A DNA stretch of 33,720 nucleotides from a virus: IMG/VR virus record IMGVR_UViG_3300047554_000667, positions 1 to 33,720 of that record; one strand, given 5' to 3'. Below the pieces are notes generated by a model. The model made no database searches and had not been told where the DNA came from. It saw only the letters and a list, made by a program, of their open reading frames with translations. Position numbers and translations under genes: made by a program. Below are positions 3,616-29,000 of the stretch, piece by piece. Every line of letters begins with the position of its first letter. Positions within the stretch are counted from its first letter, which is position 1.

Positions 3616-4689
3616 ATGAATTCATTTAAGAAGATCGCCCTTGGTATGGTTGCAGCCATCACTTTGGGTACACTTGTTGCAACACCTGCAAGTGCTGCCA
3701 CCACAACTCTAACAGTTGGTGGATCATCACCTGCAACTGCTGGTACAACAGCAGCAACTGCAATTGCACTTCCAGTTCCTGCAGATAACTCTGTAGATTC
3801 TGCGGATGCTCTTAAGATTGCACTAACTGGACTTGATACAGGTACAGTTGTTTCTGCAGTCGCAACTAACGGAAAGATCGTAACTGCTCTTGCTACATCA
3901 GCAGCACCAGTTACAGCATCTGCTGGTTCATCATCAGCATCAGTCAGCACTGGCACAGGTACCACTGCTGATTTTTATGTTTTCACAACAACTACAGCAG
4001 CAGGTTCTGTTGCAGTTACAATTGGTGGAAATGTAACAACCTACTATTTTGCTGGTACTGCTGGCGCACTTAATACAATTGCCCTTGAAGGAGCAACATC
4101 AGGTGCTGCTGGTACAACATACACAGCAACAGTTCGTGGATATGACGTATTTGGAAATGCTAAGGGCGGAGCATCAATCAGCCTTCAGTATATTACACCA
4201 TCTGCTTCAACAACATACTCACTAACAACTGATACAGTAACAGCAACTCTTGGATCAAAGACACAGGATGTAGCACTTCCAGCATCTGGATCAGTTACGC
4301 TTGTTGCTACAGCAACAGTTGCATCTGCAGTTACAGGTCTTGCAGCACCACTTGGTGTTATTGTTAAGACTGCTACAGTTCGTGATCTTGCTGCAGAACT
4401 AACTGCAAAGAATGCTGAACTTGCTACAGCGGTTGCACAACTTGCTGCTGAAAAGGCTGCAGGAGCAAAGGCCCTCGCTGATGCAAAGGCACTTGCTGAT
4501 GCAGAACTAGCAAAGTCTAAGGCAGAAACTGCTAAGGCTGTTGCAGATCTTGCAACTGCAAATGCTGCACTTGCTAAGGCTAATGCCGACAATGCTGCAG
4601 CACTTGCTGCGGTAAAGAAGGCATTTAATGCTCTTGCTGCAAAGTGGAACAAGGCTAATCCAAAGTCTAAGGTTGCCACACTTAAGTAA
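3616..4689 (+). CDS. Exported Ala/Thr-rich protein with coiled-coil tail
   Basis: A 357-residue protein with a textbook signal peptide: a basic start (MNSFKK), a hydrophobic core (IALGMVAAITLGTLVATPA) and an ASA-type cleavage site near residue 27. The middle (30-255) is Ser/Thr/Gly/Ala rich and beta-strand prone, with an Ig-like look around TYTATVRGYDVFGNA. Residues of about 255-335 are Ala-rich heptads of coiled coil (AELATAVAQLAAEKAA). A basic tail follows. A Shine-Dalgarno (AAAAGGAA) precedes the ATG, and a terminator follows directly. A Sec signal is unusual beside terminase. It could be a host-surface-like adhesin or S-layer mimic, or a virion decoration; the function is not established. 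Confidence 0.75.
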   Translation: MNSFKKIALGMVAAITLGTLVATPASAATTTLTVGGSSPATAGTTAATAIALPVPADNSVDSADALKIALTGLDTGTVVSAVATNGKIVTALATSAAPVTASAGSSSASVSTGTGTTADFYVFTTTTAAGSVAVTIGGNVTTYYFAGTAGALNTIALEGATSGAAGTTYTATVRGYDVFGNAKGGASISLQYITPSASTTYSLTTDTVTATLGSKTQDVALPASGSVTLVATATVASAVTGLAAPLGVIVKTATVRDLAAELTAKNAELATAVAQLAAEKAAGAKALADAKALADAELAKSKAETAKAVADLATANAALAKANADNAAALAAVKKAFNALAAKWNKANPKSKVATLK

Positions 4690-4705
4690 TTAATACTTAA
4701 AGGTT

Positions 4706-4738
4706 GGGGAGTCAGGAAACTGGCTCCCTTTCTTTTTA
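4706..4738 (+). terminator. Rho-independent terminator
   Basis: A stem of about nine pairs (GGGGAGTCAG with CTGGCTCCC, one G-T pair) closed by a GAAA tetraloop at 4716-4719 and followed by a T-rich tract (tttcttttta). It lies 16 bases after the exported-protein stop, so it ends the terminase-to-3616 transcript and isolates the next promoter. Confidence 0.9.
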
Positions 4739-4746
4739 TAATAAAC

Positions 4747-4778
4747 TGATATAATAACCTTATTAGACATTAGTCTAA
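4747..4778 (+). promoter_or_regulatory. Extended -10 promoter with dyad at the start site
   Basis: TGA-TATAAT at 4747-4755 is an extended -10 box. Transcription would begin near 4762, right at a perfect inverted repeat TTAGAC-ATTA-GTCTAA (4763-4778). A dyad placed there could be an operator or a 5' stem on the PA14-protein mRNA. No convincing -35 is visible. A second -10-like TCTAAT (4774-4779) lies seven bases before the GTG at 4787. Confidence 0.55.
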
Positions 4779-4786
4779 TCTAAGGG

Positions 4787-6982
4787 GTGAGGAGAATAAA
4801 AAAATTAATACTAAGATCAGTTTTTATAACAGCACTCTTAGCACTGTGGCTACTAATATTCCCACAGGATACCGCTCATGCTGATGAAGTTAGTACAGTA
4901 CAAGTAGCCCCTTCAGACACATCTACAGTAACAAGTTTAACGCCAGTAGCCATTATTGAGTCAGCACAGGCTGCAATTACTCAGGCTGAAAGTACAACGG
5001 CAGCAATAGAAACCCAAGCAGAAGCCATTACAGGGTCTACAGAGACAGTTACAGCCACTATCGCACAGGCTCAGACCTCTATTGATCAAGCCCAAGCAGT
5101 AGTAGATAGTGCTACTGTGGCTATGGCTCAAGTCGATTCTTCCACTGTTTTAGTTGCTGAGGCTGAAGAAAACGTTACAATTGCAGAAATAGCAGTAGAA
5201 TCTCAAACAGCAGTCGTGGAAGATAAAACTATAGTCGTAGAGTCTGCAACAGCGGTTGTTGAGGCTAATACAAGCCCAGGTTTAACAATGACAGTTTATC
5301 AGGATATTGGATATAATAATGCACCACCTCAAGGAACGGGAACAGTTACTTTAGTTACAACAGATACAAATGGTATTAATGAACAATGGGGTGGCGGAGG
5401 TCCTGCTAATACATACCCTGAAGATTTTCAGGTTAAGTGGGAAGGAATTTGGACTCCACAATATACTGGAACACAATGGATTTATGCAAATGCAGATGAT
5501 GGAACACGCCTGTATCTTGATGGTCAGTTAGTAATTAATGATTGGTATGACAAGGGTGGTGGTGGATCTACTGCTGCTATTCCAACCACTGCTGGAGTAG
5601 GAAAAGATTTTGAATTTTGGTTTTATGAAAATGGTGGCGGAGCAGGTGTTCAACTATATAGGTACAATGGGGATGGTTCATGGTCAATTATTCCTGCATC
5701 TGAATTCTCTACAACATCTGCAACACCAGAACAAATTCAAACACTTCAGACGGCACAAACAAATCTTGAAGTTGCACAAGCAACCCTGGATGTTCTTGAG
5801 GCAGACCTTGCAACCGCTGAAGAGGATTTAGTTGAAGCAGAAGAAAATCTTGAAGTAGCGGAAAATAATTTAGAAGCAGCAGTCATTGCAGTTGCAGTAG
5901 CAGTAACAACTATGAATAATAATGTAACAGCAGCACAGACATTAGTTGTTTCAACACTTGCTGCAGAAGAGGCTGAAAGAGCAAGGATAGCAGAAGAAGC
6001 AAGACAAGCGGAGATCGCTAGACAAGCAGCACTAGCAGCAGAGGCTGCAAGAGTTGCTGCACAGCAAGCATACGAAGCAGAGCAAGCAAGGATTGCTGCA
6101 GAACAAGCAAGAATTAAAGCAGAGGCTGAAGCCAAAGCAGCAGAAGAGGCTGCAGCAAAAGCAGAGGCAGACAGAATTGCTGCTGAAGAAGAAGCAAAAA
6201 GATTAGAAGCAGAGCGCATTGCCGCTGAAGAGGCTGCAAAGAAAGCAGAAGAAGAGGCTAAGGCTAAGGCAGATGCTGAGGCTAAAGCAGAGGCTGATCG
6301 TCTAGCAGCAGAAGCAGAGGCTAAGGTTAAAGAAGAAGCAGAGGCTAAGGCCGAAGCAGAAAGATTAGCAGAAGAAGAGGCTAAGGCTAAAGCAGATGCT
6401 GAAGCAAAATCAAAAGCGGAAGAGGAAGCAAAAGCATTAGAAGCAAAGAAAGCAGAGGAAGCAGCAAAAGCCAAGGCAGAAGAAGAAGCCTTAAAGAAGG
6501 CTGCCGAAGAAGGTAAATTAACTGAAGCACAAAAAGAAGCAGTAGTAGAAAATCTAGTAGCAAACTTACAACCAGGAGAATCTATATCAGCAGCAGAAAT
6601 AAAAGCATCTGGGGTATCATATGCAGATTTACCACCAGCAACTCCAGTAGAAGTTAGAACAGATGAAAATGGCAACGCATTAATTATTACAGCAGAAGTC
6701 GCTGCACAGGTTGAACTTGTTTCTAACCCAGCAGCATTAGTTGAAGAGTTATTTACAGATCCTGGAGCAGCGCTTGCTGCACTTGGAAGTATTGGAGCAG
6801 ATATGACTCCAGCAGAAAGAGAAGAGGCAACTGAAATGGTTGTAGCAACAGTAGTGGCAGCAGGTGCAGCACTTAATGCTGTAGGTGCAGCAACTGGTGG
6901 ATCAGCACCAACAGGTGGTGGTTCATCTGGACCAAGTGGTGGAACAAACTCAGGTGGTTCGAGGAGGAATGAAAGATGGTAA
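4787..6982 (+). CDS. PA14-domain surface protein with long coiled coils
   Basis: A 731-residue protein. A basic N terminus and hydrophobic core (RSVFITALLALWLLIF) with an AHA-type site near residue 32 look like a signal peptide or anchor. Residues of about 40-162 are helical repeats (IAQAQTSIDQAQAVVDSA). A PA14-type beta domain covers about 165-305 (WEGIWTPQYTG, then ADDGTRLYLDGQLVI). Ala/Glu/Lys coiled coil runs from about 315 to 600, and the C terminus is Gly/Ser rich. PA14 domains bind glycans, so adhesion to the host envelope is the simplest reading. The start is uncertain: GTG 4787 has almost no spacing from any Shine-Dalgarno, whereas the GAGGAG at 4789-4794 has no ATG behind it. Confidence 0.75.
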   Translation: MRRIKKLILRSVFITALLALWLLIFPQDTAHADEVSTVQVAPSDTSTVTSLTPVAIIESAQAAITQAESTTAAIETQAEAITGSTETVTATIAQAQTSIDQAQAVVDSATVAMAQVDSSTVLVAEAEENVTIAEIAVESQTAVVEDKTIVVESATAVVEANTSPGLTMTVYQDIGYNNAPPQGTGTVTLVTTDTNGINEQWGGGGPANTYPEDFQVKWEGIWTPQYTGTQWIYANADDGTRLYLDGQLVINDWYDKGGGGSTAAIPTTAGVGKDFEFWFYENGGGAGVQLYRYNGDGSWSIIPASEFSTTSATPEQIQTLQTAQTNLEVAQATLDVLEADLATAEEDLVEAEENLEVAENNLEAAVIAVAVAVTTMNNNVTAAQTLVVSTLAAEEAERARIAEEARQAEIARQAALAAEAARVAAQQAYEAEQARIAAEQARIKAEAEAKAAEEAAAKAEADRIAAEEEAKRLEAERIAAEEAAKKAEEEAKAKADAEAKAEADRLAAEAEAKVKEEAEAKAEAERLAEEEAKAKADAEAKSKAEEEAKALEAKKAEEAAKAKAEEEALKKAAEEGKLTEAQKEAVVENLVANLQPGESISAAEIKASGVSYADLPPATPVEVRTDENGNALIITAEVAAQVELVSNPAALVEELFTDPGAALAALGSIGADMTPAEREEATEMVVATVVAAGAALNAVGAATGGSAPTGGGSSGPSGGTNSGGSRRNERW

Positions 6983-7529: not shown

Positions 7530-8054
7530 ATGACTTGTATTGCTGTAGTAAAACATGAAGATAAAATCTACATGGCTGGAGATCGTGGTGCGTCAGATGA
7601 CGGTACCATTCTAGCACTTGATGCACCTAAAGTTTGGAAGATTGGTCCATACTTAATTGGTTATGCGGGAGCAATGGACGGAGAAAGAATTCGTTACAAT
7701 TTTAAACCAACTGCACCAAATATTAAAGATACAGATAAGTTTATGCAGACAAAATTTGTAAAAGAACTTCGTGATTTCTATAATGAGTTCTGGGTAGACA
7801 CATCTAAAGATGGAGATCTTGGTTTGATCATTGCAGTTCGTGGTGAAATATATGAACATAGTTCTGCAGATATGTCTTTATCTAAATATACACTTCCATA
7901 TCTTGCAATGGGGTCAGGTGCAGAATATGCATATGGTGTTTTATATGCTACAGATAAACAAAAAAATGCAAGAAATAGAGTGCAACAGGCAGTATCAGCA
8001 GCAATTAAATTTAGTCCATCATGTATGGGGCCAGTTGACATTGTCAGTATCTAA
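7530..8054 (+). CDS. HslV/proteasome-beta-like Ntn hydrolase
   Basis: A 174-residue protein of almost exactly HslV size. The opening MTCIAVVKHEDKIYMAGDRGAS matches the HslV pattern in which Met removal exposes a catalytic Thr. The AGD motif supplies the conserved Asp, APKVWKIG the Lys region, and GSGAEYAYG the conserved GSG turn. A free N-terminal Thr nucleophile would cleave peptides or amides. No HslU-like ATPase is in the window. The gene has its own strong promoter and sits between holin-like genes and a subtilase. The fold call is good; substrate and assembly are unknown. Confidence 0.75.
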   Translation: MTCIAVVKHEDKIYMAGDRGASDDGTILALDAPKVWKIGPYLIGYAGAMDGERIRYNFKPTAPNIKDTDKFMQTKFVKELRDFYNEFWVDTSKDGDLGLIIAVRGEIYEHSSADMSLSKYTLPYLAMGSGAEYAYGVLYATDKQKNARNRVQQAVSAAIKFSPSCMGPVDIVSI

Positions 8055-9985: not shown

Positions 9986-10186
9986 ATGGAATCTACAAAG
10001 CGTACGCTATTAAAAACTTTCAGTTGGGAAACTTTTCATTTAATTGGTGTAGCAGGAGTTATCTATTTGTTTACTGGCGAATGGGAATACGCTAGTCTCG
10101 GTGCTCTTCTATACATAGGCTGGGAAGCACTTGGATATTTTATTCATGAGCGAATCTGGGCAAAGTTTGGTAAAGGAGTTAGATAA
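9986..10186 (+). CDS. DUF2061 membrane protein, copy 1
   Basis: A 66-residue protein with two hydrophobic segments and the family frame: a basic K-R-x-x-LLKTFSWE start, a YLFTGEW turn and a closing GYFIHERIWAKFG. A second copy lies at 13217-13420 with the same HER-G/I-W ending. From memory, DUF2061 genes often neighbour sulfate-activation genes in bacteria, which fits the CysC-like genes nearby. The molecular role is unknown. It begins directly after the endolysin stop. Confidence 0.8.
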   Translation: MESTKRTLLKTFSWETFHLIGVAGVIYLFTGEWEYASLGALLYIGWEALGYFIHERIWAKFGKGVR

Positions 10187-10290
10187 TGCGTATTAAGATT
10201 ATTAAGTTTGTTGTAAAAGTACTTGGATATGAATGGGGCGGAGATAATTTAAATGCTCCCATTTGGACAGTAAAAGCAAAGAAGAAATAA
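10186..10290 (+). CDS. Very small basic protein
   Basis: 34 residues (starting MRIKIIKFVVKVLGYEWGG and ending in KAKKK). The start shares a base with the DUF2061 stop (TAATG), and the end shares a base with the next gene in the same way, so it belongs to a coupled chain. No family is recognised; amphipathic N-terminal helix likely. Confidence 0.55.
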   Translation: MRIKIIKFVVKVLGYEWGGDNLNAPIWTVKAKKK

Positions 10291-10475
10291 TGCCATCATA
10301 TGATTATGACTGTATGTCTTGTGCAAAAAGATATACAAAAGTGAGATCTATGTCTGAAGATGATCCAGGGTATCTGTGTGATGCTTGCAATAAACCATTG
10401 GTTCGTGTATACTTAAATGCAGGGTTCATTCTAAATGGATCTGGATTTTATTCAACAGACAATAGAAAGAAGTAG
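10290..10475 (+). CDS. FmdB-type zinc-ribbon protein
   Basis: 61 residues beginning MPSYDYDCMSCAKRY, with a second pair CDACNK and the family ending GFILNGSGFYSTDN. This matches the CxxC...CxxC ribbon of FmdB regulatory proteins, common in actinobacteria. I chose ATG 10290 (TAATG overlap with the previous gene) over the upstream in-frame ATG 10263 because the family begins at MPxYxYxC. It is possibly a small regulator. Confidence 0.8.
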   Translation: MPSYDYDCMSCAKRYTKVRSMSEDDPGYLCDACNKPLVRVYLNAGFILNGSGFYSTDNRKK

Positions 10476-10481
10476 TATACT

Positions 10482-10715
10482 ATGAATACAATGATTGAGA
10501 CATCTGAAAAAGAAAAAGAGTGGGTTCTAAAGGCAACAGATAGATGTGACTCTTGTTCTGCTCAAGCCCTAGTTCAAGTAACTGGTCTTAATGGTGATTT
10601 AATGTTTTGCGGTCATCATTATAATAAGATTATGGATAACCCAGATGGATACAAAAAGATGATGTCTTTTATGATTAATATTGTTGATGAGCGAGAAAAA
10701 ATATCTAAGGAATAG
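10482..10715 (+). CDS. DUF7455-type zinc protein
   Basis: 77 residues from ATG 10482 (74 from ATG 10491). The core DRCDSCSAQALVQV...GDLMFCGHHYNKI matches the short CxxC...CxHH proteins that are widespread in actinobacteria and their phages. The cysteines and histidines should bind one zinc. A -10-like TATACT sits directly before ATG 10482; if it is used, the transcript would start near the second ATG at 10491. The function is unknown. Confidence 0.75.
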   Translation: MNTMIETSEKEKEWVLKATDRCDSCSAQALVQVTGLNGDLMFCGHHYNKIMDNPDGYKKMMSFMINIVDEREKISKE

Positions 10716-10718
10716 TTG

Positions 10719-11309
10719 ATGCATATTCATGAAAAAGAATATGACAAAATTCTGTTTGTACACATACCAAAAACTGCTGGTACGTCAGTATTAAATGCAA
10801 TTAAAGAAAAGGGATTAGACCCTTGGGATAGAAAGTCTAATGATTATCCTAGGGGTCATATTCCTTTATTTCTTTTAAAAAAGCAGATAGCACAAAATGA
10901 ATCAGTTTTTTCTTTTTCTGTTGTTAGAAATCCATACACTAGAACCTATAGTTGTTTTCATCAATTTAATAAAACTAATAAAACAAATTTATCCTTTATT
11001 GAATATTTAAAAAATATACAACGTAATAATATTTCTAAGATCACGCCGTTGTTGCACTTACCGCAATACTTATATCTTATTAATGAGTATGGAACTTTAG
11101 ATACTGATAGAATATATAAATTTGAAAATCTAAAAGAATTAGAAAATGATCTTAGATTAGAATTAGCAGTTGACAACATAGGCAAATATATGGTAGAATT
11201 ATATAATCAAGACTATACAAGCGAAGCAATAGATTTAGTATCATACATATATAAGTCAGATTTTGATCGTTTTGAATATTCTAAAGAGTTTGTACGATTG
11301 GGCGAATAA
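10719..11309 (+). CDS. Sulfotransferase-like protein A
   Basis: A 196-residue member of the sulfotransferase fold (Sulfotransfer_2-like). The 5'-phosphosulfate loop is at residues 17-23 (PKTAGTS after the strand ILFVHI). The 3'-phosphate-binding element is at about 69-78 (VRNPYTRTYS) followed by CFHQF. Such enzymes move sulfate from PAPS to sugars, proteins or small molecules. ATG 10719 has AAGGA upstream. Three bases later an oxygenase gene starts, and two CysC-like genes follow, an arrangement consistent with local PAPS supply. The acceptor is unknown. Confidence 0.75.
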   Translation: MHIHEKEYDKILFVHIPKTAGTSVLNAIKEKGLDPWDRKSNDYPRGHIPLFLLKKQIAQNESVFSFSVVRNPYTRTYSCFHQFNKTNKTNLSFIEYLKNIQRNNISKITPLLHLPQYLYLINEYGTLDTDRIYKFENLKELENDLRLELAVDNIGKYMVELYNQDYTSEAIDLVSYIYKSDFDRFEYSKEFVRLGE

Positions 11310-11311
11310 TT

Positions 11312-11869
11312 ATGAGCAAATTAGAAGAAGATTTTAATTTTAAAAGACATGGTTCTTTTAATATTGATGCTATTAAGTCCCACATTGCAAACTTTGTAGA
11401 TGAATGGTTTATTGATATTTCTAGACAGTTGCAATATGCAAACCACAAAGATACAGAGTCTTATTTTATATATAAGTCAGATCTTACTTGGAGTAAAGGT
11501 AGTGAGTTTGCTTATGAACAAAAATCTCAAGATGATGTTTTGGTTCAGTTAGTAGAGCCAATAGTAAAAACTTTAGAAGATATTCATAATGGCATAAGGG
11601 GAAATGTTTTGTTAATAAAACTAAAATCAAAACAGAACATCCCAAGCCACTTTGATGATGGAGACTATTTAATTTATTCAAGAAGGCATCATGTTCCTAT
11701 CATTACAAGCAATGATACAATGTTTGGAGTTGGACTAGAAAGTATTAATATGGCCGAAGGTGATTGCTGGGAAATTAATAATACTAGGCTTCACTCTGTT
11801 AAAAACAATAGCAATATAGACAGGGTGCATTTACTAGTTGATATTATGCCAAAGGGAGAAATAAAATGA
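11312..11869 (+). CDS. Asp/Asn beta-hydroxylase-like 2OG-Fe(II) oxygenase
   Basis: A 185-residue protein. Iron ligands H113 and D115 (IPSHFDDGD), distal H161 (NNTRLHSVKNNSN) and 2OG-binding R171 (DRVHLLVDI) form the pattern of the Asp_Arg_Hydrox family, as does RRHHVPI. It would hydroxylate a side chain using O2 and 2-oxoglutarate. It lies between the sulfotransferase-like gene and the CysC-like pair, overlapping the latter by 4 bases (ATGA). The substrate is unknown. Confidence 0.82.
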   Translation: MSKLEEDFNFKRHGSFNIDAIKSHIANFVDEWFIDISRQLQYANHKDTESYFIYKSDLTWSKGSEFAYEQKSQDDVLVQLVEPIVKTLEDIHNGIRGNVLLIKLKSKQNIPSHFDDGDYLIYSRRHHVPIITSNDTMFGVGLESINMAEGDCWEINNTRLHSVKNNSNIDRVHLLVDIMPKGEIK

Positions 11870-12378
11870 TTATACAATTAATGGGGATGGACTCTGAAAC
11901 CAGAGAAAAAATTGGAAGAGAGTTTGCCAAGAAGATTGACGCTTGGTACTTAGACAGCAGAGATCTTCCAATGGGCCATACACAGCCACAGCAGGCAAGA
12001 TGGCTTAGGGTTGTTGCAAAAGCCTACGATAGAAATAACCGTGGTCATATTGTCACCAGCGGGTTTTTTGCTACGGCAGAATCACGTGAGCAATATCGTA
12101 TTGAGGGTGGTAGACAAGTTCCAGATTTTTCTGTTTATATTGATACAATACCTCATGATCAATTTCATACAATTCCAGGGTATGTAGAACGTGTTGTTCA
12201 AAATATTGATGACCATAGCAAGGACGAAATGCAAAGACTAGATTATTGGGAAGAACCAGCAGAAGAAGACTATGATTTAATAATTAAAGATGGTTCAAAT
12301 ATTTCTGAGGCTGCAAATATTATATTTGAAGAGTATAATAAAAAAATGGTTGATTATAAGATAGTTACTAGGGGATAG
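11866..12378 (+). CDS. CysC-like protein lacking the P-loop
   Basis: A 170-residue protein whose layout follows adenylylsulfate kinase: an opening strand (MIIQLMG), a DSRDL segment where the kinase has DGDxVR, a central helix (QARWLRVVAKAYDRNNRG), the strand HIVTSGFFATAESREQYR where kinases have IVxxFISPxxxxR, then FSVYIDT. The first loop reads MDSETREKIG instead of GxxGxGKS/T, so ATP binding in the usual way is not expected. It sits directly before the intact kinase fusion. It may be an inactive partner or a repurposed binding protein. Confidence 0.6.
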   Translation: MIIQLMGMDSETREKIGREFAKKIDAWYLDSRDLPMGHTQPQQARWLRVVAKAYDRNNRGHIVTSGFFATAESREQYRIEGGRQVPDFSVYIDTIPHDQFHTIPGYVERVVQNIDDHSKDEMQRLDYWEEPAEEDYDLIIKDGSNISEAANIIFEEYNKKMVDYKIVTRG

Positions 12379-12386
12379 GGAAAACA

Positions 12387-13154
12387 ATGATTATTCTTTT
12401 TATTGGACTGCCAGGGGCAGGAAAAACTAGCATTGCTGGAGCAGTAAGTGATAGGGTTAATGGCCTACATCTTAATGCAGATGAAGTACGTAATGGTGTC
12501 AATAAGGATTTAGGTTTTACTACAGAAGATCGTATTGAGCAAGCCCGTCGCATGGGAGAACTAGCAAGACTTATGGAACGCAAACAGGAGCGCCCAGTCA
12601 TTGTTGATTTTGTATGTCCAACAGAAGAAACACGTAGAGCCTTTGGTGAAGCAGATTTAGTTGTTTGGGTAGATACTATTAAAGAAGGTCGCTTTGATGA
12701 TACAAATAAACTTTGGGAAGATCCACAGTACTACGATCATCGCATTGAAGTAACTGGAGATGATTATCTAGATTCGCTTCCAACAAGAGCAATTACGGTT
12801 GTTCGTAAGTTTGGTCTAATTGATTGGAAGGAAGATACAGTACTTCTCCTTGGTCGCTACCAACCTTGGCATGAAGGACATCGTGCTCTTTATGAAGAGG
12901 CAAAGAAGAGAGCCTATCAAGTCGTTATTGGTGTTAGACATACTTCAGGCATGACACCAAAGGATCCTCTACACTTCCATGAAGTTAAGCAGCACATACT
13001 TAATGATGTTCCAGATGCATTTGTGGTTAAGATGCCTAATATTACTAACATTGTATATGGTCGTGATGTTGGATATAAGATTGAGCAAGTAGATTTGGGG
13101 GAAGCGATTCATGCTATTTCGGCTACTCAAAAGCGTAAAGAATTGGGCATTTGA
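12387..13154 (+). CDS. CysC-like kinase fused to nucleotidyltransferase
   Basis: A 255-residue fusion. The N-terminal domain (1-140) has P-loop GLPGAGKT at 7-14, NADEVRNGVNKDLGFTTEDR at 30-49 and VIVDFVCPTEETRR at 71-84, very close to APS kinase. The C-terminal domain (150-255) has GRYQPWHEGH at 156-165 and ISATQKR at 244-250, the two signature motifs of HIGH-type nucleotidyltransferases such as NMN adenylyltransferase. It might make PAPS, act on a nucleoside such as nicotinamide riboside, or activate a phosphorylated metabolite. Neighbouring sulfotransferase-like and DUF2061 genes favour a sulfate link. The activity is unproven. Confidence 0.75.
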   Translation: MIILFIGLPGAGKTSIAGAVSDRVNGLHLNADEVRNGVNKDLGFTTEDRIEQARRMGELARLMERKQERPVIVDFVCPTEETRRAFGEADLVVWVDTIKEGRFDDTNKLWEDPQYYDHRIEVTGDDYLDSLPTRAITVVRKFGLIDWKEDTVLLLGRYQPWHEGHRALYEEAKKRAYQVVIGVRHTSGMTPKDPLHFHEVKQHILNDVPDAFVVKMPNITNIVYGRDVGYKIEQVDLGEAIHAISATQKRKELGI

Positions 13155-13216
13155 TTTTATTTTTGATAATAAACTTGCAGATGTAGAAACACGACTATAT
13201 GTTAGGGAAATAAAAG

Positions 13217-13420
13217 ATGACAGTAACAAAGGCTAGATCATTTGCTAAAGCATTAAGTTATCGTATTTGGGGAACACTTTCCTCATTTGTTGTCGCCTAT
13301 GTTTTAACAGGAGATGCTACGCTCTCAGGTGCAATTGCATTTTGGGAAACGGTAGTTAAAGTATTTATATACTACGCACATGAGCGTGGTTGGAACTATA
13401 TACAATGGGGGAGAAAATAA
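13217..13420 (+). CDS. DUF2061 membrane protein, copy 2
   Basis: A 67-residue protein with the family frame: KARSFAKALSYRIWGTLSS, a first membrane helix, the VLTGDATLSGAIAFWE turn, a second helix and a closing YYAHERGWNYI. It is clearly related to the copy at 9986-10186. It follows the kinase-nucleotidyltransferase fusion after 62 bases with no gene, and its stop shares a base with the nuclease start (TAATG). Confidence 0.82.
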   Translation: MTVTKARSFAKALSYRIWGTLSSFVVAYVLTGDATLSGAIAFWETVVKVFIYYAHERGWNYIQWGRK

Positions 13421-17006: not shown

Positions 17007-17048
17007 AATAGGCTAGGAGAATAAAACTCTTAGCCTATTTTTTATTTT
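17007..17048. terminator. Bidirectional rho-independent terminator
   Basis: A stem of about 13 pairs: AATAGGCTA paired with TAGCCTATT, extended by one G-T pair and GAG/CTC around an A-rich loop. It is flanked by T-rich runs on both strands. It ends the plus operon finishing at 16996 and the convergent minus-strand oxygenase gene finishing at 17047. Confidence 0.92.
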
Positions 17049-17748
17049 AAAATAGTTCTTTAAAAATTGGCTTATAAGGAAAATCTAAGTCTTTTCTTCT
17101 TCTAGTTGTCTCAGCATCATCACCAAACTCTAAAAATGAAACTATAGTCCATCTAGGATTCCCAGCAGTAATTTCTGTAATGCGATGTTCATAAGAGTAC
17201 CCAGATGGGAAAATGAATAGTTGCTTTGCCTTTGGTTTAATCGTTACACCAAAATGAATAAACTCTAATTCTCCACCTTCGTAATCATCATTTGGATAAT
17301 AGACTAAAGAAACGGTTCTTGGTGTTGCAAAAGTATCATCCGCATGAGCACCAAAAAACTCGCCATTAGAAAATCTAGAAATTCTTAAACTTTCTCTACT
17401 TCTTGGGTCTAAATTCCAGTGATAGATATATGAGTTTACAACATCTCTAAAAGCATCGTTTGCTTCTGGATATGAGTATACCCAACACGTATCAGACTTT
17501 TTCCCATTGTCTTTTGTATACTCAACATCATCAAAAAAATCTTCACGGACCCATTTTCTTGCCCCAGGAATATCTAGATTTGTTTCCCAAAACTCAGGGG
17601 TAAGTAGTTTTTCAAAAAATGAATCTGAGTCTGGCCAGATATCATCATAAATATGAACTCCAGGAATTGGAGATGTAAATTTAAACTCATTACCTTTTTG
17701 ATCTACCGTAACGCCTTTTTTGGCATTTTCTAGTCTTTGCTGATCCAT
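17047..17748 (-). CDS. 2OG-Fe(II) oxygenase (prolyl-hydroxylase type) 1
   Basis: A 233-residue protein. Metal ligands H135 and D137 (FFGAHADD), distal H188 (YSYEHRI) and 2-oxoglutarate-binding R199 (NPRWTIVSF) are all present, within the double-stranded beta helix typified by YPNDDYEGGELEF and KPKAKQLFIFPS. An AAAGGA precedes the ATG and an extended -10 (TGG-TATAAT) lies at 17771-17779. It is divergently transcribed from sulfotransferase-like gene B. The substrate is unknown. Confidence 0.87.
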   Translation of the reverse strand: MDQQRLENAKKGVTVDQKGNEFKFTSPIPGVHIYDDIWPDSDSFFEKLLTPEFWETNLDIPGARKWVREDFFDDVEYTKDNGKKSDTCWVYSYPEANDAFRDVVNSYIYHWNLDPRSRESLRISRFSNGEFFGAHADDTFATPRTVSLVYYPNDDYEGGELEFIHFGVTIKPKAKQLFIFPSGYSYEHRITEITAGNPRWTIVSFLEFGDDAETTRRRKDLDFPYKPIFKELF

Positions 17749-17805: not shown

Positions 17806-18513
17806 ATGCCTGGTTTTTTTATATCAACGCCACCTAGATGTGGAACGCATCTACTTGTTGACTCAATTGCTTTTGCTACAAAATCTTATAGTGCAAGATT
17901 TACAAAGTATTCCGAAGACTTTTGGACACATCCAGTAATCCAAGGAAGACAAAATCCTGTTATTGGTATACATGTTCATAACGAATACCCAGAACTATTT
18001 GATTTTGCAAAGAATCATAAAATAATTACAACAGAAAGGCATCCTCTTGGACAAGCCTTGTCTATTTTATTTATGTACAATCGTGGCTTCAGACCAGATT
18101 GGCCAGAAGCAGACTCCTTTGATACTAATAAATTAATTGGGATGGCTCCAAACTCTGAAAATTTTTTAGAATATTTAAACAGCAAGCAATTTTTAAGGTA
18201 TCGTAAAATAACAAAAGAGTGGGGAAAGCATGGAGAAACTTTTAGTTTTGATAAGATAGTTTTAGGAAATGCTAATGAACTATCAAGGCTAGAGGATTAT
18301 GTGGGTGCCAAAGTTGTTTTAAAAGATATTGAAAAAAGTAGGAAAAAATATAATGACGGCATTGTATTTTTGGGTGATCCAGACTTATGGAAAACTATTT
18401 TTTGTCAAGATATAGCAAATCAGGCTGCTAAACTATTCCCAGACTATGACATGGAAACTTATAAGCCCTCTCCAAGTGATGGTAATTGGACATACGCTCA
18501 ACTTATGCTATAA
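17806..18513 (+). CDS. Sulfotransferase-like protein B
   Basis: A 235-residue protein. The PAPS 5'-phosphosulfate loop is at 9-17 (PPRCGTHLL) after the strand GFFIST, and the 3'-phosphate motif is at 77-86 (ERHPLGQALS), as in the sulfotransferase fold. It is distant from proteins A and C, so the three probably differ in acceptor. It starts without a Shine-Dalgarno, six bases after an extended -10. Its stop TAA lies inside the TATAAT of the next promoter. Confidence 0.7.
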   Translation: MPGFFISTPPRCGTHLLVDSIAFATKSYSARFTKYSEDFWTHPVIQGRQNPVIGIHVHNEYPELFDFAKNHKIITTERHPLGQALSILFMYNRGFRPDWPEADSFDTNKLIGMAPNSENFLEYLNSKQFLRYRKITKEWGKHGETFSFDKIVLGNANELSRLEDYVGAKVVLKDIEKSRKKYNDGIVFLGDPDLWKTIFCQDIANQAAKLFPDYDMETYKPSPSDGNWTYAQLML

Positions 18514-21215: not shown

Positions 21216-22151
21216 ATGTTTGAACTTCATTCACATACTTTTTATAATATTAATCCAAATACCTTTAATACTATGTGGATTCAAAACCCAGATAATAGCG
21301 CCAACTTTATATACAATATTATAAAAAATGACGATGCAAAAAATAAAAAATACACCTATAAAAATATTAACGGGTACCACATTCTAAACCACATTCCTCC
21401 AGAAAGGATTAAGGATGGTAATGAGGATTGGGAAGTAGAATATTCCTTTAATAATGATTTGTTTAGGTCAGATCATTTTCAGAGTAACCATGATGGATTA
21501 CATGTTTTGTTTGGTGGATGCTCTAATACGGAAGGCGTTGGTTCCAATATACATGACAATTGGTCTCACATGCTTTATAGAGAAATATCTAAATACAAAA
21601 AAGTTAGTGGCTATTTTAGTATAGCAAAAGGTGGTTATGGTTGGCATCAAATATTTTTAAATTTTAAAGTATATGTAGAAAAGTATGGTGCACCAGATTA
21701 TTATCTAGTTTTGCATCCAGATATAATGCGTTTTTATGAATGGAAAGATGAAAAAAAGCATTGGGGATATTCCTGGCAATATAATCAAAAGAATATAGGA
21801 AAAGATTTTTCAAGAGAAGAATATGAAACAAAGCACAGGGAAGTGTTTCCAAATTGGGTCGCTGCCATGTCTATTTTTATTGCATACTGTGAGTCAGTTG
21901 GCACTAAGTTTATATGGACTACTTGGGATAAAGAAGAGATGGAAAATATAAAAAATAGTAACTTTTTTAACTCTACATACTTTACTCCATACGTACATGA
22001 CTCAAATACAGTTAAAAGATTAAGACCAGATGGAAAATTTGAAAAAGATGACATTAACTTTAGAGATGGCCACCCTGGAAAAATTCAACAACAACTTTGG
22101 TTTGAATCATTTAGGGATGAACTAATTAAAAGAAAAGAAATCTTTCAATGA
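21216..22151 (+). CDS. SGNH/GDSL hydrolase-like protein
   Basis: A 311-residue protein. Block I appears as VLFGGCSNTEGVGS (nucleophile candidate S103) and the C-terminal catalytic pair as FRDGHPGKIQQQLW near residue 287. Together these are the signature of SGNH hydrolases acting as esterases or acetyl-transfer enzymes on glycans or lipids. The middle (YLVLHPDIMRFYEW) fits an alpha/beta fold. The start lacks a Shine-Dalgarno; TACTAT ends 5 bases before the ATG. It overlaps the RsmI-like gene by 4 bases. Confidence 0.7.
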   Translation: MFELHSHTFYNINPNTFNTMWIQNPDNSANFIYNIIKNDDAKNKKYTYKNINGYHILNHIPPERIKDGNEDWEVEYSFNNDLFRSDHFQSNHDGLHVLFGGCSNTEGVGSNIHDNWSHMLYREISKYKKVSGYFSIAKGGYGWHQIFLNFKVYVEKYGAPDYYLVLHPDIMRFYEWKDEKKHWGYSWQYNQKNIGKDFSREEYETKHREVFPNWVAAMSIFIAYCESVGTKFIWTTWDKEEMENIKNSNFFNSTYFTPYVHDSNTVKRLRPDGKFEKDDINFRDGHPGKIQQQLWFESFRDELIKRKEIFQ

Positions 22152-22915
22152 AAAAGGGTAAACTTTATTTAGTGGGACTTCCAGTGGGTAATTGGGAGGA
22201 TATGTCAGTTAGAGCATATAGATATATCAAAAATGCTAAAAATATTGTAATTGAAAGAGAAGAAGCATTTGAGAACATATGGCCAGCACTTGGAATGAAA
22301 AGGCCAGATGTAAATATAATTTCTATAGAGATGGACTCTAATGGTGGTGAACCAGGAAGATCATACGAACTCGAAAACATGGATAAAATTTTAGCATTGC
22401 TCGAATCTGGAGAAGATGTTTATATTATTTCAGATGATGGTATGCCAGGAATTGCAGATCCAGGTGAATTGATTACAAAAAAGGCTATAGAAAATGGTTT
22501 TGAGATCACAGCCACACCTGGACCATCTGTTGCAATTGCTGCAGTAGCAGTAGCAGGTTGTATGCACAACTTCTCTTTCGAGTCCTTTTTACCTTTTACA
22601 AAAGAAGAAAGAATTAAGTATTTAATGGAAAGAAGACATGTTCATGCGCCAATGGTTTTTGTTCTAAGAAATTTACAAAGAAGTCAGGATGGTTTGCCGT
22701 CTTATCATTTAGAAATACCAGAGTTTTTATCAGAAGCAGTAGAGGTTTTGGGAGGTAACAGGAAAGCAGTACTTTGCTATAACCTAACAAAGCCAAATGA
22801 AAAAGTAATACGTGGAACCATGTTGGAACTACAAAAATATTTTAACGAGACACCACGAGAGCCAGATTTAATTACTATTGTTATAGATACTGTTAATGGT
22901 TCATTTAGCGTATAA
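22148..22915 (+). CDS. RsmI-like tetrapyrrole-methylase-fold methyltransferase
   Basis: 255 residues. GKLYLVGLPVGNWEDMSVRAYRYIKNA copies the RsmI N terminus (LYLVxTPIGNLxD). DDGMPGIADPGELI parallels the D-AGTPxISDPG loop, and ATPGPSVAIAA and FEFxSFLPF-type segments follow. Host RsmI 2'-O-methylates C1402 of 16S rRNA. A phage copy may alter ribosomes, protect decoding or methylate another substrate. Its 3' end overlaps the convergent carbamoyltransferase gene by 11 bases. Confidence 0.82.
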   Translation: MKKGKLYLVGLPVGNWEDMSVRAYRYIKNAKNIVIEREEAFENIWPALGMKRPDVNIISIEMDSNGGEPGRSYELENMDKILALLESGEDVYIISDDGMPGIADPGELITKKAIENGFEITATPGPSVAIAAVAVAGCMHNFSFESFLPFTKEERIKYLMERRHVHAPMVFVLRNLQRSQDGLPSYHLEIPEFLSEAVEVLGGNRKAVLCYNLTKPNEKVIRGTMLELQKYFNETPREPDLITIVIDTVNGSFSV

Positions 22916-24344
22916 TCTTTTGGTTATATGTCTTTTCCCACAAATCAATATCTTGTTCATCATTTAACAACGGCTGTCCTTTAATATTTAAACTTGTATT
23001 AAGCAACATTGGAACACCAGTCTGTAAATAAAATTTATTTAAAGTCATCCATAGTCCTCGATGCTGTTCTCTGTTAACTGTTTGAACTCTAGATGTCCCA
23101 TCTTCGTGAACTACTGATGGTACTTGATTTGGTTTTAAACATTTAACAGTATATTGCATATACGGACTATCAAAATCCATATCAAACCATTTTGAGGCAT
23201 GCTCTTCCATTACCACTGGAGCAAAAGGCCTAAATAGTTCACGTTTCTTAATCATATTAACCTTATCTTTAATATTTGGATCACGTGGATCTGCTAATAT
23301 GCTTCTGTTTCCTAGTGCTCGTGGACCATATTCTGCTCTACCAGTTGCAACAGGTGCAACACCATTTTTTAATATAGCATCTACAATTTGTTGCACGGGA
23401 TATTCTCCACCTAAATCATATCCTAGGTATGGAGTTTTCCATTCAATATGCTTGCCATAAAGCGCTGCTGCTGCACCAAGAGAACTACCTGCATCTCCAG
23501 GATTTGGCATTATCCAAATCATATCAAACAAAAGCCATAGGGATGTGTTTGCTGAAGAGTTTAGTGCACAGCCACCCATAAATACTAAATTCTTTTTATT
23601 GGTTAATTCTTTAGCCATACCAACAAATTCCATTAATCGGCTTTGATAAACTACCTGGACAGCGGCTGCTATATCAAATTTATCCTGTTCTGTTATTGGC
23701 ATACCCCAGTCATTAATACCCTGATGAAAATTATATTTTTGTTTTGAATATGATGGAAAATATTCCACAATCTTTTTTAAATATTTATCTGGATCGCCAT
23801 ATGCTGCCATCCCCATCATGATATATTCTTCCTGATTCGGCATTAGACCTATTAATTGTGTAAATGCAGAATAGAATAAACCAAAACTAATAGGATAATT
23901 TTGCTTATATTTTAACTTAATTTTATTACCTTCGCCTACCCAAACCGTCGAAGTATTATATTCACCAATTGCATCCAATACTACAATAACAGCATCATTA
24001 AAAGGACTAGTATAGTACCCCGCTGCTGCATGTGAATAGTGGTGCTTAAAAAAGGTTGTAGGAACTCTTTTACCAAACATATTATCGACTATATACTTTG
24101 GGTTCCAGTCTCCCTGACCACCCTTTAAAAGTAGTCTGGAGGCCTTTAGAAGGGGTTTTTCATAGTAGGCTATGCGATCTGGAAAGCCATAAGACAAAGC
24201 ATTTTTAATTAAACTATCATTCACATACCAGTCATTTTTTTGTTTGCTATATCTTTCGGCATGGCCAGCAAATAATATTTCTCCGTCTTTAATTAAAGAA
24301 ACGGAGGCATCATGAGATGTCTCATTAATTCCAAGAATTATCAT
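22905..24344 (-). CDS. NodU-family carbamoyltransferase
   Basis: 479 residues. The N-terminal Kae1-like part opens MIILGINETSHDASVSLI and carries HHYSHA at 101-106 and VVLDAIGEYNTS. The C-terminal part (about 320 on) contains GRAEYGPRALGNRSILADPRDP and FRPFAPVV. Such enzymes use carbamoyl phosphate and ATP to carbamoylate sugar or antibiotic hydroxyls. It is shorter than typical 550-600 residue members, mainly at the C terminus (ends LWEKTYNQKIIR). It overlaps the upstream oxygenase gene by 4 bases in one operon. Confidence 0.9.
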   Translation of the reverse strand: MIILGINETSHDASVSLIKDGEILFAGHAERYSKQKNDWYVNDSLIKNALSYGFPDRIAYYEKPLLKASRLLLKGGQGDWNPKYIVDNMFGKRVPTTFFKHHYSHAAAGYYTSPFNDAVIVVLDAIGEYNTSTVWVGEGNKIKLKYKQNYPISFGLFYSAFTQLIGLMPNQEEYIMMGMAAYGDPDKYLKKIVEYFPSYSKQKYNFHQGINDWGMPITEQDKFDIAAAVQVVYQSRLMEFVGMAKELTNKKNLVFMGGCALNSSANTSLWLLFDMIWIMPNPGDAGSSLGAAAALYGKHIEWKTPYLGYDLGGEYPVQQIVDAILKNGVAPVATGRAEYGPRALGNRSILADPRDPNIKDKVNMIKKRELFRPFAPVVMEEHASKWFDMDFDSPYMQYTVKCLKPNQVPSVVHEDGTSRVQTVNREQHRGLWMTLNKFYLQTGVPMLLNTSLNIKGQPLLNDEQDIDLWEKTYNQKIIR

Positions 24345-25009
24345 TCTTGTCCTGTAGAATCTCTTTTAAGTTCTAAAGGTATATTATGATACCAATTTGG
24401 AAGGGCATATCTAGGACCTTTTGTTACTGGATATACCTCATGAACATAAAGAAAATTAGATGGAAAAAATAGTACGCTACCTGCTTTTGGTTTAAACTTA
24501 AGATTGGAGTGTCTAAACTCAATCTCCCCACCCTCATAGTCGTCGTTTAGATAGAGCAATACTGACAAAACTCTGCTACTAATTCCCTGATCTTGATGTG
24601 CTGGAAGGTGACCACTTTCATCATATTTCAATAGGTGCATTGTATGTTCTCTAGACTTAATATTTTTTTCAGCAAATGGATATAACTCTGTTGTGTAGTG
24701 ATGCAAAGTTTTATCTAGAGCCCCAAACAATTGTGAAGATATGCTTATTTGTTCTTCTCTATACACGTCGTCTAGTGGAATGTGCTCAACTTGTGGTATA
24801 AACTTTTGCCAACAAAACATGAGTTTGTTTGCTCCCTCGCCATAAGTCCATGCAACCCAAGGTTTTACAGATGTTCTAACAGGGGTGTTATCCTCCTGAT
24901 ATCTTTTATCTAATTCTTCAATTTCATTAATTAAAGATGCTGGATCTTTTATTACATTTGTGTAATATGCAATTCCAAGATCTAATACTTCAACGTTAAA
25001 GTTTGACAA
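24341..25009 (-). CDS. 2OG-Fe(II) oxygenase (prolyl-hydroxylase type) 2
   Basis: 222 residues from a TTG start with AAAGGA upstream; it overlaps the preceding gene by 14 bases. Iron ligands are H138 and D140 (LPAHQDQG) and H190 (YVHEV); R200 (GPRYALPNW) binds 2-oxoglutarate. LNDDYEGGEIEFRH and KPKAGSVLFFPS mark the P4H-type core, close to oxygenase 1. It lies between another oxygenase and the carbamoyltransferase, so their products may share a substrate. Confidence 0.87.
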   Translation of the reverse strand: MSNFNVEVLDLGIAYYTNVIKDPASLINEIEELDKRYQEDNTPVRTSVKPWVAWTYGEGANKLMFCWQKFIPQVEHIPLDDVYREEQISISSQLFGALDKTLHHYTTELYPFAEKNIKSREHTMHLLKYDESGHLPAHQDQGISSRVLSVLLYLNDDYEGGEIEFRHSNLKFKPKAGSVLFFPSNFLYVHEVYPVTKGPRYALPNWYHNIPLELKRDSTGQE

Positions 25010-25589
25010 GTGGATAATCCTTTGCTCTCCATTTATTTATACCAGGATGAAACTCTGGGTCAACATGCTGAGGAAGAGATGTATGCATATATAGTGCAGT
25101 GTGTCGATTTCCTCTTTGTACTGTTGTGATTCCATGTATATATTCTGTACCAGCACTTGGAAAGAATACTGCGGAGTACTGTTTTGGTTTATATTCAAAA
25201 CCTTGGTTTGGGAAATAAATAATTCCTCCATCATATTCGCTTGGATCATTTAAATATATAATAGTACTAAATTCAATCCATGGCTCAGGGCCTTGTGCAT
25301 CGATGTGGAGATCACCTTTTGTTCCTGGTGCCCAGTTAGATCCAAATGCTTTAAACACATATATATCATTTTTAAAGCCATTCAAGGCTTTGTGCATGTC
25401 ATTGGACTTATTGCCATATTTCTTTAATATATCCATTACTATTTTGTTATATGGAAATGCTGTTCCACCATATCTATCTTTATAGTATTCGGGATATGGA
25501 TTGTTTTCGGATGGATTTTTTTGTTCTGCCACAAGTATGGCTGCTTCTTCTGGTGTAATAAAATTTTCAATAACCGATATTCTGTTCAT
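24996..25589 (-). CDS. 2OG-Fe(II) oxygenase 3
   Basis: 197 residues from ATG 25589. A longer in-frame start at 25631 would cover the promoter and overlap the upstream gene, so it is rejected. H95, D97 (DLHIDAQG), H152 (YIHGI) and R162 form the active site, with LNDPSEYDGGIIYFPN in the core. TATAAT (25601-25596, minus) ends six bases before the ATG with no Shine-Dalgarno, so the message is predicted to be leaderless. It heads the oxygenase-oxygenase-carbamoyltransferase operon. Confidence 0.85.
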   Translation of the reverse strand: MNRISVIENFITPEEAAILVAEQKNPSENNPYPEYYKDRYGGTAFPYNKIVMDILKKYGNKSNDMHKALNGFKNDIYVFKAFGSNWAPGTKGDLHIDAQGPEPWIEFSTIIYLNDPSEYDGGIIYFPNQGFEYKPKQYSAVFFPSAGTEYIHGITTVQRGNRHTALYMHTSLPQHVDPEFHPGINKWRAKDYPLVKL

Positions 25590-25595
25590 ATTTAT

Positions 25596-25601
25596 ATTAT
25601 A
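25596..25601 (-). promoter_or_regulatory. -10 box, leaderless promoter
   Basis: Minus-strand TATAAT, six bases upstream of ATG 25589, lying over the stop of the methyltransferase gene (25597). A TG dinucleotide is adjacent but without the usual one-base gap. Confidence 0.6.
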
Positions 25602-26301
25602 CACCATTCGTTTTTTTAATATAAATATCATAAAAACCTAGTGGATGAAGGGCTAAAGCATCGACCTCCCAATCATTATTATAATGCAAAAATTCGTTTA
25701 CCGTCTGGTAGGTTCCATAAGGTTGATCTTCAATTACTCCATCATAAATAAGATAGTCATTTAAACCAATAATTCCACCATCGTTAATTTTTTTAGATGC
25801 TTCAGCCAAAACATTTCTGGTAACATCTCTATCATTTGTAATATCAATATAAATAAAGTCATATGTCTTGTTTACTGACTTAAGAACAACCTGTGCTTTT
25901 CCTTTAATGGTGTTCACATTTCCATGGTAGGCAAACTTTTCTTTAATGTATTCTTCGTGCGTTTCTGGTATATATAACAACTCGTGCTTCATTCCCTCGC
26001 ATTGACAAGAACCAAACTTCCTCCACGACCAACATTTTAGATCTTGATCGTAGCCATCTAATAAATCTGCTTCACTTGCATTACTTGCATCAATGAACAT
26101 CTTTGCTGAATATCCCCAAGCAACACCAATCTCTAAATAACTAATTCCCTTTTGTAAACTTTTGGCATAGTCTTCTCGTGTAGCAAAAATTTTTGCATTT
26201 TTTAATTGTGCAGGTCTTATGTTATATGCACTTTCAATTTCTTCTAAACCAAACTTCTTTGACTCGCCTGGATTTAAAGGCGCTTTGGGAACTCTTGGCA
26301 T
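25597..26301 (-). CDS. Class I SAM methyltransferase, copy 1
   Basis: 234 residues. Motif I appears as ISYLEIGVAWGYSAKMF and an acidic loop as LLDGYDQD. YDFIYIDITNDRDVTRNVLAEASKKINDGGIIGLNDY corresponds to motifs IV-V of the Methyltransf_24 type. A Cys-containing insert (FGSCQCEGM) lies in the middle. The N- and C-terminal parts (QLKNAKIF; YGTYQTVNEFLHYNNDWEV) are shared with the protein at 28069-28677. It follows the CDGSH gene after a stop/start junction (TAAATG). Confidence 0.8.
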   Translation of the reverse strand: MPRVPKAPLNPGESKKFGLEEIESAYNIRPAQLKNAKIFATREDYAKSLQKGISYLEIGVAWGYSAKMFIDASNASEADLLDGYDQDLKCWSWRKFGSCQCEGMKHELLYIPETHEEYIKEKFAYHGNVNTIKGKAQVVLKSVNKTYDFIYIDITNDRDVTRNVLAEASKKINDGGIIGLNDYLIYDGVIEDQPYGTYQTVNEFLHYNNDWEVDALALHPLGFYDIYIKKTNGV

Positions 26302-26505: not shown

Positions 26506-26543
26506 TTTGGTTCCTTTACCTTAAACCCTTTTGGGCACATATC

Positions 26544-26552
26544 ATTATATCA
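26544..26552 (-). promoter_or_regulatory. Extended -10 formed with an upstream stop codon
   Basis: Minus-strand TGA-TATAAT. The TGA is the stop of sulfotransferase-like gene C. A leader of about 30 bases follows, with a short dyad GCCCAAAAGGGT and then a Shine-Dalgarno before the CDGSH gene. Confidence 0.65.
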
Positions 26553-27221
26553 CCAATCGGCCTGGAACTCATTTATTACTTTGTGTGTTTTATTGTAAAT
26601 CTCTATCATCTCACCTAAATCTGATCGATTAGAAACAAGACTATTAATTTTATAATATATATCTGGCTTTTTGTCTACAGGTAGAAAATTATTATACCCT
26701 GGGTTCCCCTTATCATGCATAATAATTTTTGTCATTGCTTTCTTTTTTAATGTCTCAATCTGATTGTTGTTGATCTCCACATCAACAACCTTTTGAGAAA
26801 CTAAACTAATGTTAGTGGTTATTTGTTCAAATGTAAATGGTAATATATTTTCAATATTTTGTAACAAGCATTTAGAATAAGCGGCATATTGTTCAAATTG
26901 AGCGTCAATCAAAAGAGATAAGTTTGAACTATTATTTTCGTGTGGCATATTTATACCACCATTAACATTTGTTCCGTATCCACCCATTGTTTTTGTAATA
27001 ATGGATGATATTAAGTCAATTGGGTTTCTTAAAACAAAGCATTGTTTGATATCTTTAAAGTTAGCAAGAAGCATGACTGGGCTATGAGACCTAATAATAA
27101 ATTCATCTTTTAATAAACTTGGATTATACAAATCTTTTGTATTACCACTTGCTTCAGCAAGGAAAAAATTAAACCAAGCCAGACCTGTTCTTGGTGCAGA
27201 GTTTAAAATTATTTTATTCAA
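26550..27221 (-). CDS. Sulfotransferase-like protein C
   Basis: 223 residues. The phosphosulfate loop region is at 8-16 (SAPRTGLAW) after the strand NKIIL, and the 3'-phosphate motif at 64-73 (LRNPIDLISS) after CFV. The central region has an unusual Gly/Asn stretch (GGYGTNVNGG). Fold assignment is reasonable, but the loop lacks the usual Lys, having Arg at that place as some prokaryotic members do. The start has no clear Shine-Dalgarno. A 70-base T-rich gap separates it from oxygenase 4. Confidence 0.65.
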   Translation of the reverse strand: MNKIILNSAPRTGLAWFNFFLAEASGNTKDLYNPSLLKDEFIIRSHSPVMLLANFKDIKQCFVLRNPIDLISSIITKTMGGYGTNVNGGINMPHENNSSNLSLLIDAQFEQYAAYSKCLLQNIENILPFTFEQITTNISLVSQKVVDVEINNNQIETLKKKAMTKIIMHDKGNPGYNNFLPVDKKPDIYYKINSLVSNRSDLGEMIEIYNKTHKVINEFQADW

Positions 27222-27291
27222 CTTTGTATGCCCTTATTTTTTTTGCCCTATTTAGTTACCCTCATGATTAGATTAATTTTGTTTAAAACAG

Positions 27292-28032: not shown

Positions 28033-28038
28033 AACAAG

Positions 28039-28061
28039 ATTATACCAGATTATGATATACT
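28039..28061. promoter_or_regulatory. Divergent extended -10 pair, both leaderless
   Basis: Minus strand: TGG-TATAAT at 28047-28039, six bases from ATG 28032. Plus strand: TGA-TATACT at 28053-28061, seven bases from ATG 28069. Only 36 bases separate the two start codons, and neither gene has a Shine-Dalgarno. Confidence 0.75.
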
Positions 28062-28068
28062 CTTAAAT

Positions 28069-28737: not shown

Positions 28738-28741
28738 AAAG

Positions 28742-28999: not shown

Positions 29000-29000
29000 A

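Follow-up and report, generated by a model that had tools for sequence, protein, structure and literature searches.

A kinase–nucleotidyltransferase fusion beside a sulfotransferase gene in a phage: a putative compact enzyme of sulfate activation

Results

Gene content of the segment 9986-13420

The window analysed here, the whole of a 33.7-kb virus record (IMG/VR record IMGVR_UViG_3300047554_000667, 33,720 nucleotides, GC 36%), carries between positions 9986 and 13420 a group of genes that an earlier note, made from the sequence alone, had read as a possible sulfation module. Central to it is KNT, a 255-residue fusion of a domain resembling adenosine 5'-phosphosulfate (APS) kinase with an adenylyltransferase-like domain of the CTP_transf_like type (NT, for nucleotidyltransferase); ST1, a Sulfotransfer_2 protein, is encoded at 10716-11309. 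From the sequences and their contexts we favour, with some reserve, the reading that KNT is a compact sulfate-activation enzyme whose product, 3'-phosphoadenosine 5'-phosphosulfate (PAPS), would be used by ST1 for sulfation.

All genes of the segment lie on the plus strand, in the order DUF2061, zinc-ribbon protein, DUF7455, ST1, 2-oxoglutarate (2OG) oxygenase, P-loop-less kinase relative, KNT and DUF2061, and a 98-kb record (L002) is near-identical to the window across this region. Every open reading frame named in the note was found at its position and all the genes it listed for the module are real, both DUF2061 proteins among them, although the list had passed over the PF05118 oxygenase inside the interval. 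The features are as follows.

9986..10186, plus strand: DUF2061 membrane protein, copy 1, 66 residues (PF09834, 42.6 bits, cut-off 23.1)
10716..11309, plus strand: ST1, Sulfotransfer_2-type sulfotransferase, 197 residues (PF03567 over cut-off; PHROG 3347, 2e-16)
11312..11869, plus strand: Asp/Asn beta-hydroxylase-like 2OG-Fe(II) oxygenase (PF05118, 1.8e-13)
11866..12378, plus strand: P-loop-less relative of the KNT kinase domain, pseudokinase-like (relatives at 19 phage loci)
12387..12812, plus strand: KNT kinase domain, APS-kinase-like (PF01583, 1.6e-15; P-loop GLPGAGKT at 12405-12428)
12813..13154, plus strand: KNT NT domain (PF01467; GRYQPWHEGH at 12852-12881, YGRDVGY at 13056-13076, ISATQKR at 13116-13136)
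13217..13420, plus strand: DUF2061 membrane protein, copy 2, 67 residues, directly after KNT (PF09834, 65.4 bits, cut-off 23.1)

The two domains of KNT

The kinase domain matches PF01583 with 57.9 bits against a cut-off of 21.1, and its P-loop is nearly invariant in the family alignment. Structure prediction, which the earlier note had proposed as a check, returns an APS kinase fold: the AlphaFold2 model of the domain has a mean predicted local distance difference test score (pLDDT) of 90, and each of the 50 PDB matches listed by Foldseek is either an APS kinase or an enzyme with such a domain (best E 1.9e-8). The claim of an intact CysC-like kinase domain is thus borne out. Alignment to Escherichia coli CysC reveals that KNT keeps without exception four residues of the DGDxxR...LGF...DR segment (D, R, F and R) and two of FISP (F and P); at the Asn that comes next in CysC, members of the KNT family have Q, H or N. 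In CysC these residues contact APS, and the positions aligned with the APS site are largely kept in the KNT kinase. KNT has in common with CysC and other PF01583 kinases the P-loop, the D..R...N.DLGF..EDR segment and the fold, with FVCP standing in for FISP.

The NT domain, of about 113 residues, matches PF01467 (CTP_transf_like) with 22.6 bits against a cut-off of 21. It has the GRFQPFHxGH motif and the fold of the nicotinamide mononucleotide (NMN) adenylyltransferase NadM, and scores far under the NCBIfam equivalog cut-offs for NadM (26 against 397 bits and 17.9 against 181.2 bits). Two arginines are invariant, one in the VR motif (Arg184) and one in the YGR motif (Arg226), and in printed alignments the position equivalent to Arg184 holds no arginine in NadM-type enzymes. 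We suggest that Arg184 and Arg226 may bind sulfate. The domain order recalls that of the human PAPS synthase PAPSS1, in which an N-terminal APS kinase, whose fold the KNT kinase matches, is likewise followed by a nucleotidyltransferase domain with HxGH. PAPSS1, however, has about 620 residues, and the NT domain of KNT is related to NadM, with no detectable homology to ATP sulfurylase.

KNT, DUF2061 and ST1 in related phages

KNT occurs widely in freshwater phages, with at least 600 IMG/VR stretches encoding it, far beyond what chance would give; the locus counts given here take in phages related to one another and do not represent independent events. At 67 of the 72 loci with enough sequence, KNT has a DUF2061 gene no more than 1.5 kb downstream, and DUF2061 copies are also found repeatedly upstream of KNT in phages related to this one. 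At all 33 loci with ST1 the oxygenase follows it, and KNT follows in turn at all but two of the 33 (at two of the loci that have it, about 3 kb further on), usually succeeded by DUF2061.

The assignment of ST1 as a sulfotransferase-like protein with both PAPS-binding motifs is upheld by a PF03567 score of 26.2 bits (cut-off 22) and by conservation of the motifs, HIPKTAG at 10761-10781 and R71...S79 at 10926-10952, in 14 relatives, all of which share PKTAG, R and S without change. Its best PDB-profile matches, which are weak (0.008), are to heparan sulfate 2-O-sulfotransferase. An iterated sulfotransferase profile, for which the Rhizobium fusion described below was trimmed to its sulfotransferase part, showed that varied sulfotransferase-like subfamilies adjoin KNT or its DUF2061 in phages, whether directly upstream of KNT (L061/L070), directly downstream of its DUF2061 (L060/L064, L074, L076, L137) or next to KNT on the opposite strand (L047/L052). 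Of these KNT-adjacent proteins, three have Pfam backing as Sulfotransfer_2, with one score above the cut-off and two under it.

The phage family PHROG 10255, annotated as 'kinase', has the same two domains and aligns to KNT over nearly its full length with 36-40% identity; its members come from the Stenotrophomonas phages DLP6, Suzuki and Bhz60, Clavibacter phage 33 and Xanthomonas phage AhaSv. It differs in a more divergent kinase domain, and no DUF2061 gene or ST1 relative was detected in the three regions examined.

Bacterial contexts of KNT and DUF2061

A scan of bacterial genomes revealed, on an 880-kb contig of Rhizobium sp. BK376, a 555-residue fusion of sulfotransferase, kinase and NT (PF03567 at residues 21-231, APS kinase at 292-373, nucleotidyltransferase at 436-466), the sulfotransferase part of which is homologous to ST1. 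The KNT gene of another genome of Rhizobium's order (L170) overlaps a Sulfotransfer_1 gene (PF00685, 1.3e-26), a single-contig genome of 2.59 Mb (L281) has its kinase and NT as separate genes, some 0.2 kb away from one for a TPR-Sulfotransfer_3 protein (1.7e-40), and in G600 (L278) a Sulfotransfer_3 gene (2.9e-18) lies 2.7 kb from KNT. The occurrence of three sulfotransferase families beside one enzyme argues for a shared donor. One further bacterial contig, from a Chitinophagaceae metagenome-assembled genome (L158), was taken to be phage sequence binned with a bacterium and left out of the bacterial evidence, as its KNT/DUF2061 arrangement and its 59%-identical KNT are those seen in phages.

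In one small alphaproteobacterial order, sampled with six genomes, the operon cysI-cysH-DUF2061-kinase-NT is present in all five genomes that bear kinase and NT genes, with siroheme genes ahead of it wherever the contig extends far enough; in G438 both CysH and CysI exceed their NCBIfam equivalog cut-offs. The near-complete genome G701 was read whole (27 contigs, 1,144,502 bases, tRNAs for 19 amino acids) and contains no Sat, CysD, CysN or other CysC. No PF01747 match occurs in the drafts G569 and G666, and the single PF01507 match of each is CysH, so that CysD is missing as well; the absence of ATP sulfurylase thus refers to one near-complete genome and two drafts. In these genomes NT fills the sulfate-activation slot of the cysI-cysH operon, which by elimination makes it the best candidate for the sulfate-adenylating step. 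The idea that the fused nucleotidyltransferase takes the place of ATP sulfurylase, which the earlier note had raised to meet the lack of such a gene, is now the best-supported reading of this domain, although homology to Sat, sought by hhalign and by fold search, was not found.

The earlier note had also placed DUF2061 beside sulfate-activation genes, and such arrangements do exist: in the nod clusters of Mesorhizobium huakuii and Mesorhizobium sp. AR02 it lies between a sulfotransferase and cysD-cysN, in Microvirga it comes after cysH-cysD-cysN, and the alphaproteobacterial operons above are a further case. DUF2061 was rejected as a strict marker of sulfation, since many copies have no adjoining sulfate gene, including those of Bradyrhizobium, Phaeobacter, Halobellus, Mesorhizobium INR15 and most of 30 alphaproteobacterial loci. 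Among the papers searched we found none that treats DUF2061 together with cysC, nor one that joins phage, ATP sulfurylase, APS kinase and sulfotransferase.

Other genes of the window

The protein encoded at 11866-12378, described in the note as a degenerate CysC-like protein, has no match in Pfam or NCBIfam. Weak overlap of tblastn results obtained with it and with the KNT kinase identifies it as a distant relative of that kinase, which sustains the kinship, but GxxGxGK[ST] is absent from all 19 listed relatives and the protein cannot be an ordinary kinase. The family has a conserved DLPMGH-QPQQARWLRV block, and its members sometimes occur without KNT nearby.

Two more sulfotransferase-like genes had been proposed, and these are kept as tentative.

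17806..18513, plus strand: tentative second sulfotransferase (motifs STPPRCGTHLL ... TTERHPLGQALS)
26550..27221, minus strand: tentative third sulfotransferase (motifs SAPRTGLAW ... VLRNPIDLISS, by eye)

The motifs of the former are conserved in 12 relatives, and for the latter one near-identical viral record was found. Neither protein has Pfam, PHROG, PDB-profile or profile-profile support as a sulfotransferase, and for want of a profile match both were dropped as confirmed members of the group, leaving the motifs recognised by eye. Each of the three candidate sulfotransferase genes is immediately adjoined by a 2OG-Fe(II) oxygenase gene (11312-11869, 17047-17748 and 27292-28032), an arrangement that may be due to chance, as there are six oxygenase genes of this type in the window.

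A WhiB-family regulator at 15614 (PF02467, 1.3e-10) and the DUF7455 protein point to an actinobacterial host; this freshwater virus probably infects actinobacteria, and acI-type freshwater actinobacteria are a plausible host group. Elsewhere in the window, a proteasome-subunit-like protein (7530-8054; PF00227, 5.5e-5) is well kept among related phages, and two large Ala/Lys/Glu-rich proteins (3616-6982) have signal-like N termini, the second also having a PA14 domain. A modification cluster at 21216-30106 encodes a Nol-like carbamoyltransferase, several 2OG oxygenases, two Methyltransf_24 proteins and an RsmI-like TP_methylase, and is a possible source or target of sulfated structures.

Discussion

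A putative route from sulfate to a sulfated product

In the pathway that we propose, the NT domain would join ATP and sulfate to form APS, acting as a very small, non-orthologous ATP sulfurylase. The kinase domain is then predicted, with strong support from sequence and fold, to phosphorylate APS to PAPS, and ST1, given its family and motifs, would move the sulfate to an acceptor, which might be a surface glycan, a part of the virion or the product of the adjacent hydroxylase. DUF2061, a small membrane protein associated with sulfate activation by its gene contexts, could, more speculatively, serve in sulfate entry or in anchoring the enzymes. With such a route from sulfate to PAPS the phage would not depend on APS or PAPS of its host, which fits hosts of the acI type, since these are reported to lack assimilatory sulfate reduction (PMC5301498). 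The grouping resembles NodH-NodPQ of rhizobia, where sulfotransferase, sulfate activation and DUF2061 are likewise brought together for sulfation (of Nod factor) and not for assimilation, although activation there is of the CysDN/C type and the phage has KNT.

The notion of a phage-borne route to PAPS and sulfation is strongly and independently backed by the Rhizobium fusion, the three sulfotransferase types beside KNT, DUF2061 between nod sulfotransferase and cysDN, and the cysI-cysH operons of genomes where no other enzyme of sulfate activation turned up. It is supported only in part, because two of the three sulfotransferases in the window are tentative and the degenerate CysC-like protein is no ordinary kinase.

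Several observations weigh against this interpretation. KNT differs from CysC not only in its fusion to NT: where classical APS kinases have their C-terminal lid, KNT carries an RFEDTNK...P segment, and its kinase scores 56 bits against the NCBIfam apsK cut-off of 138.7, the match ending near residue 85, where the lid diverges. The nearest solved relatives of NT, by sequence and by fold, are NMN adenylyltransferases of the NadM type; comparison with one Sat by hhalign gave a probability of 4.9% over 15 columns, confined to an ISGTKIR-like motif of 15 residues, and no Sat is among the top 50 fold matches. G438, which bears the operon, has a Sat as well. In the small alphaproteobacterial genomes G620 and G712, kinase and NT lie directly behind a Rieske-type oxygenase gene (L280:7260-9264 and L282:7331-9301) in what looks like a betaine/one-carbon (C1) cluster, the 18 kb read there showing neither a sulfotransferase nor cysH, and the KNT genes L276, L277 and L279 have no sulfur or sulfotransferase neighbour that we could see; the proposed model leaves all five contexts unexplained. 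Most KNT phages also lack a recognisable sulfotransferase gene nearby, such a gene being present in the fetched flanks at 18 of 80 KNT loci, and a PF03567 match occurs somewhere in 8 of 16 long KNT records (over the cut-off in 4). These counts show that KNT-DUF2061 is the core and the sulfotransferase only an optional partner.

Alternative roles for KNT

It is conceivable, though on our estimate rather unlikely, that KNT is only an APS kinase serving sulfation, with APS drawn from the host and some other role for NT. The clear likeness of the kinase to APS kinases would be equally accounted for, as would the resemblance of NT to NMN adenylyltransferases instead of ATP sulfurylase, and kinase-only relatives (L171, L172) do adjoin sulfotransferase-like genes. 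Yet NT follows the kinase almost everywhere, as a fusion or an overlapping gene, the kinase-NT operon stands in a near-complete genome with no other ATP sulfurylase, and the plausible acI hosts are those without assimilatory sulfate reduction. The same kinship of NT with NadM allows a NadR-like enzyme of NAD salvage, in which the kinase would act on a nucleoside such as nicotinamide riboside and NT would be the NMN adenylyltransferase. A short protein at 31133-31342 resembles the NMN transporter PnuC (27.1 bits, just below the cut-off of 27.3), and in Clavibacter phage 33 a NADAR-domain gene (L082:4553-4993) overlaps the distant KNT relative. We regard this role as improbable, as the kinase domain is that of an APS kinase and not of a ribosylnicotinamide kinase, NT falls far short of the NadM equivalogs, and the neighbouring genes are those for sulfotransferases, cysH-cysI and DUF2061.

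Reported cysC genes of freshwater phages have been assigned to assimilatory sulfate reduction (PMC10914622), and these probably include the KNT family because KNT is common in freshwater phages. An auxiliary metabolic gene raising the supply of PAPS for cysteine synthesis would agree with the split kinase and NT genes in the cysI-cysH operons of some bacteria. In contrast, PF01507 (cysH) and PF01747 (ATP sulfurylase) are both absent from all 16 KNT phage records, some of which may be incomplete, so the usual assimilation reading misfits; the recurrent neighbours in phages are sulfotransferases; and the entire pathway is reportedly missing from acI actinobacteria (PMC5301498), so that PAPS could not be reduced there. 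A sulfation role fits the KNT phages better, and an assimilatory one seems very improbable for them. Least credible, and by a long way an outside chance, is that KNT makes some other activated group, for example a CDP- or ADP-linked phosphoramidate, that the 'sulfotransferases' would move. The O-methyl phosphoramidate pathway of the Campylobacter capsule pairs a nucleotidyltransferase with an APS-kinase-like enzyme, and this pairing is what speaks for the idea, but the cysH/cysI contexts and the nod-factor sulfotransferase with cysDN point to sulfate.

Implications

We see about an even chance that the full extent of the sulfate-activation reading holds, namely that NT is a third, unrelated ATP sulfurylase and KNT an unusually small PAPS synthase, that phages carry a self-contained pathway from sulfate to a sulfated product in which DUF2061 is a membrane protein specifically linked to sulfate, and that some streamlined alphaproteobacteria rely on a KNT-type enzyme for assimilation. 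If so, a non-orthologous ATP sulfurylase would join one of the best-known pathways in biology and would account for sulfate activation in bacteria seemingly unable to carry it out, and DUF2061 would gain a function-linked context. The phage 'cysC' would then be the donor-making half of a sulfation system, and not a booster of sulfate assimilation, in phages whose likely hosts lack PAPS.

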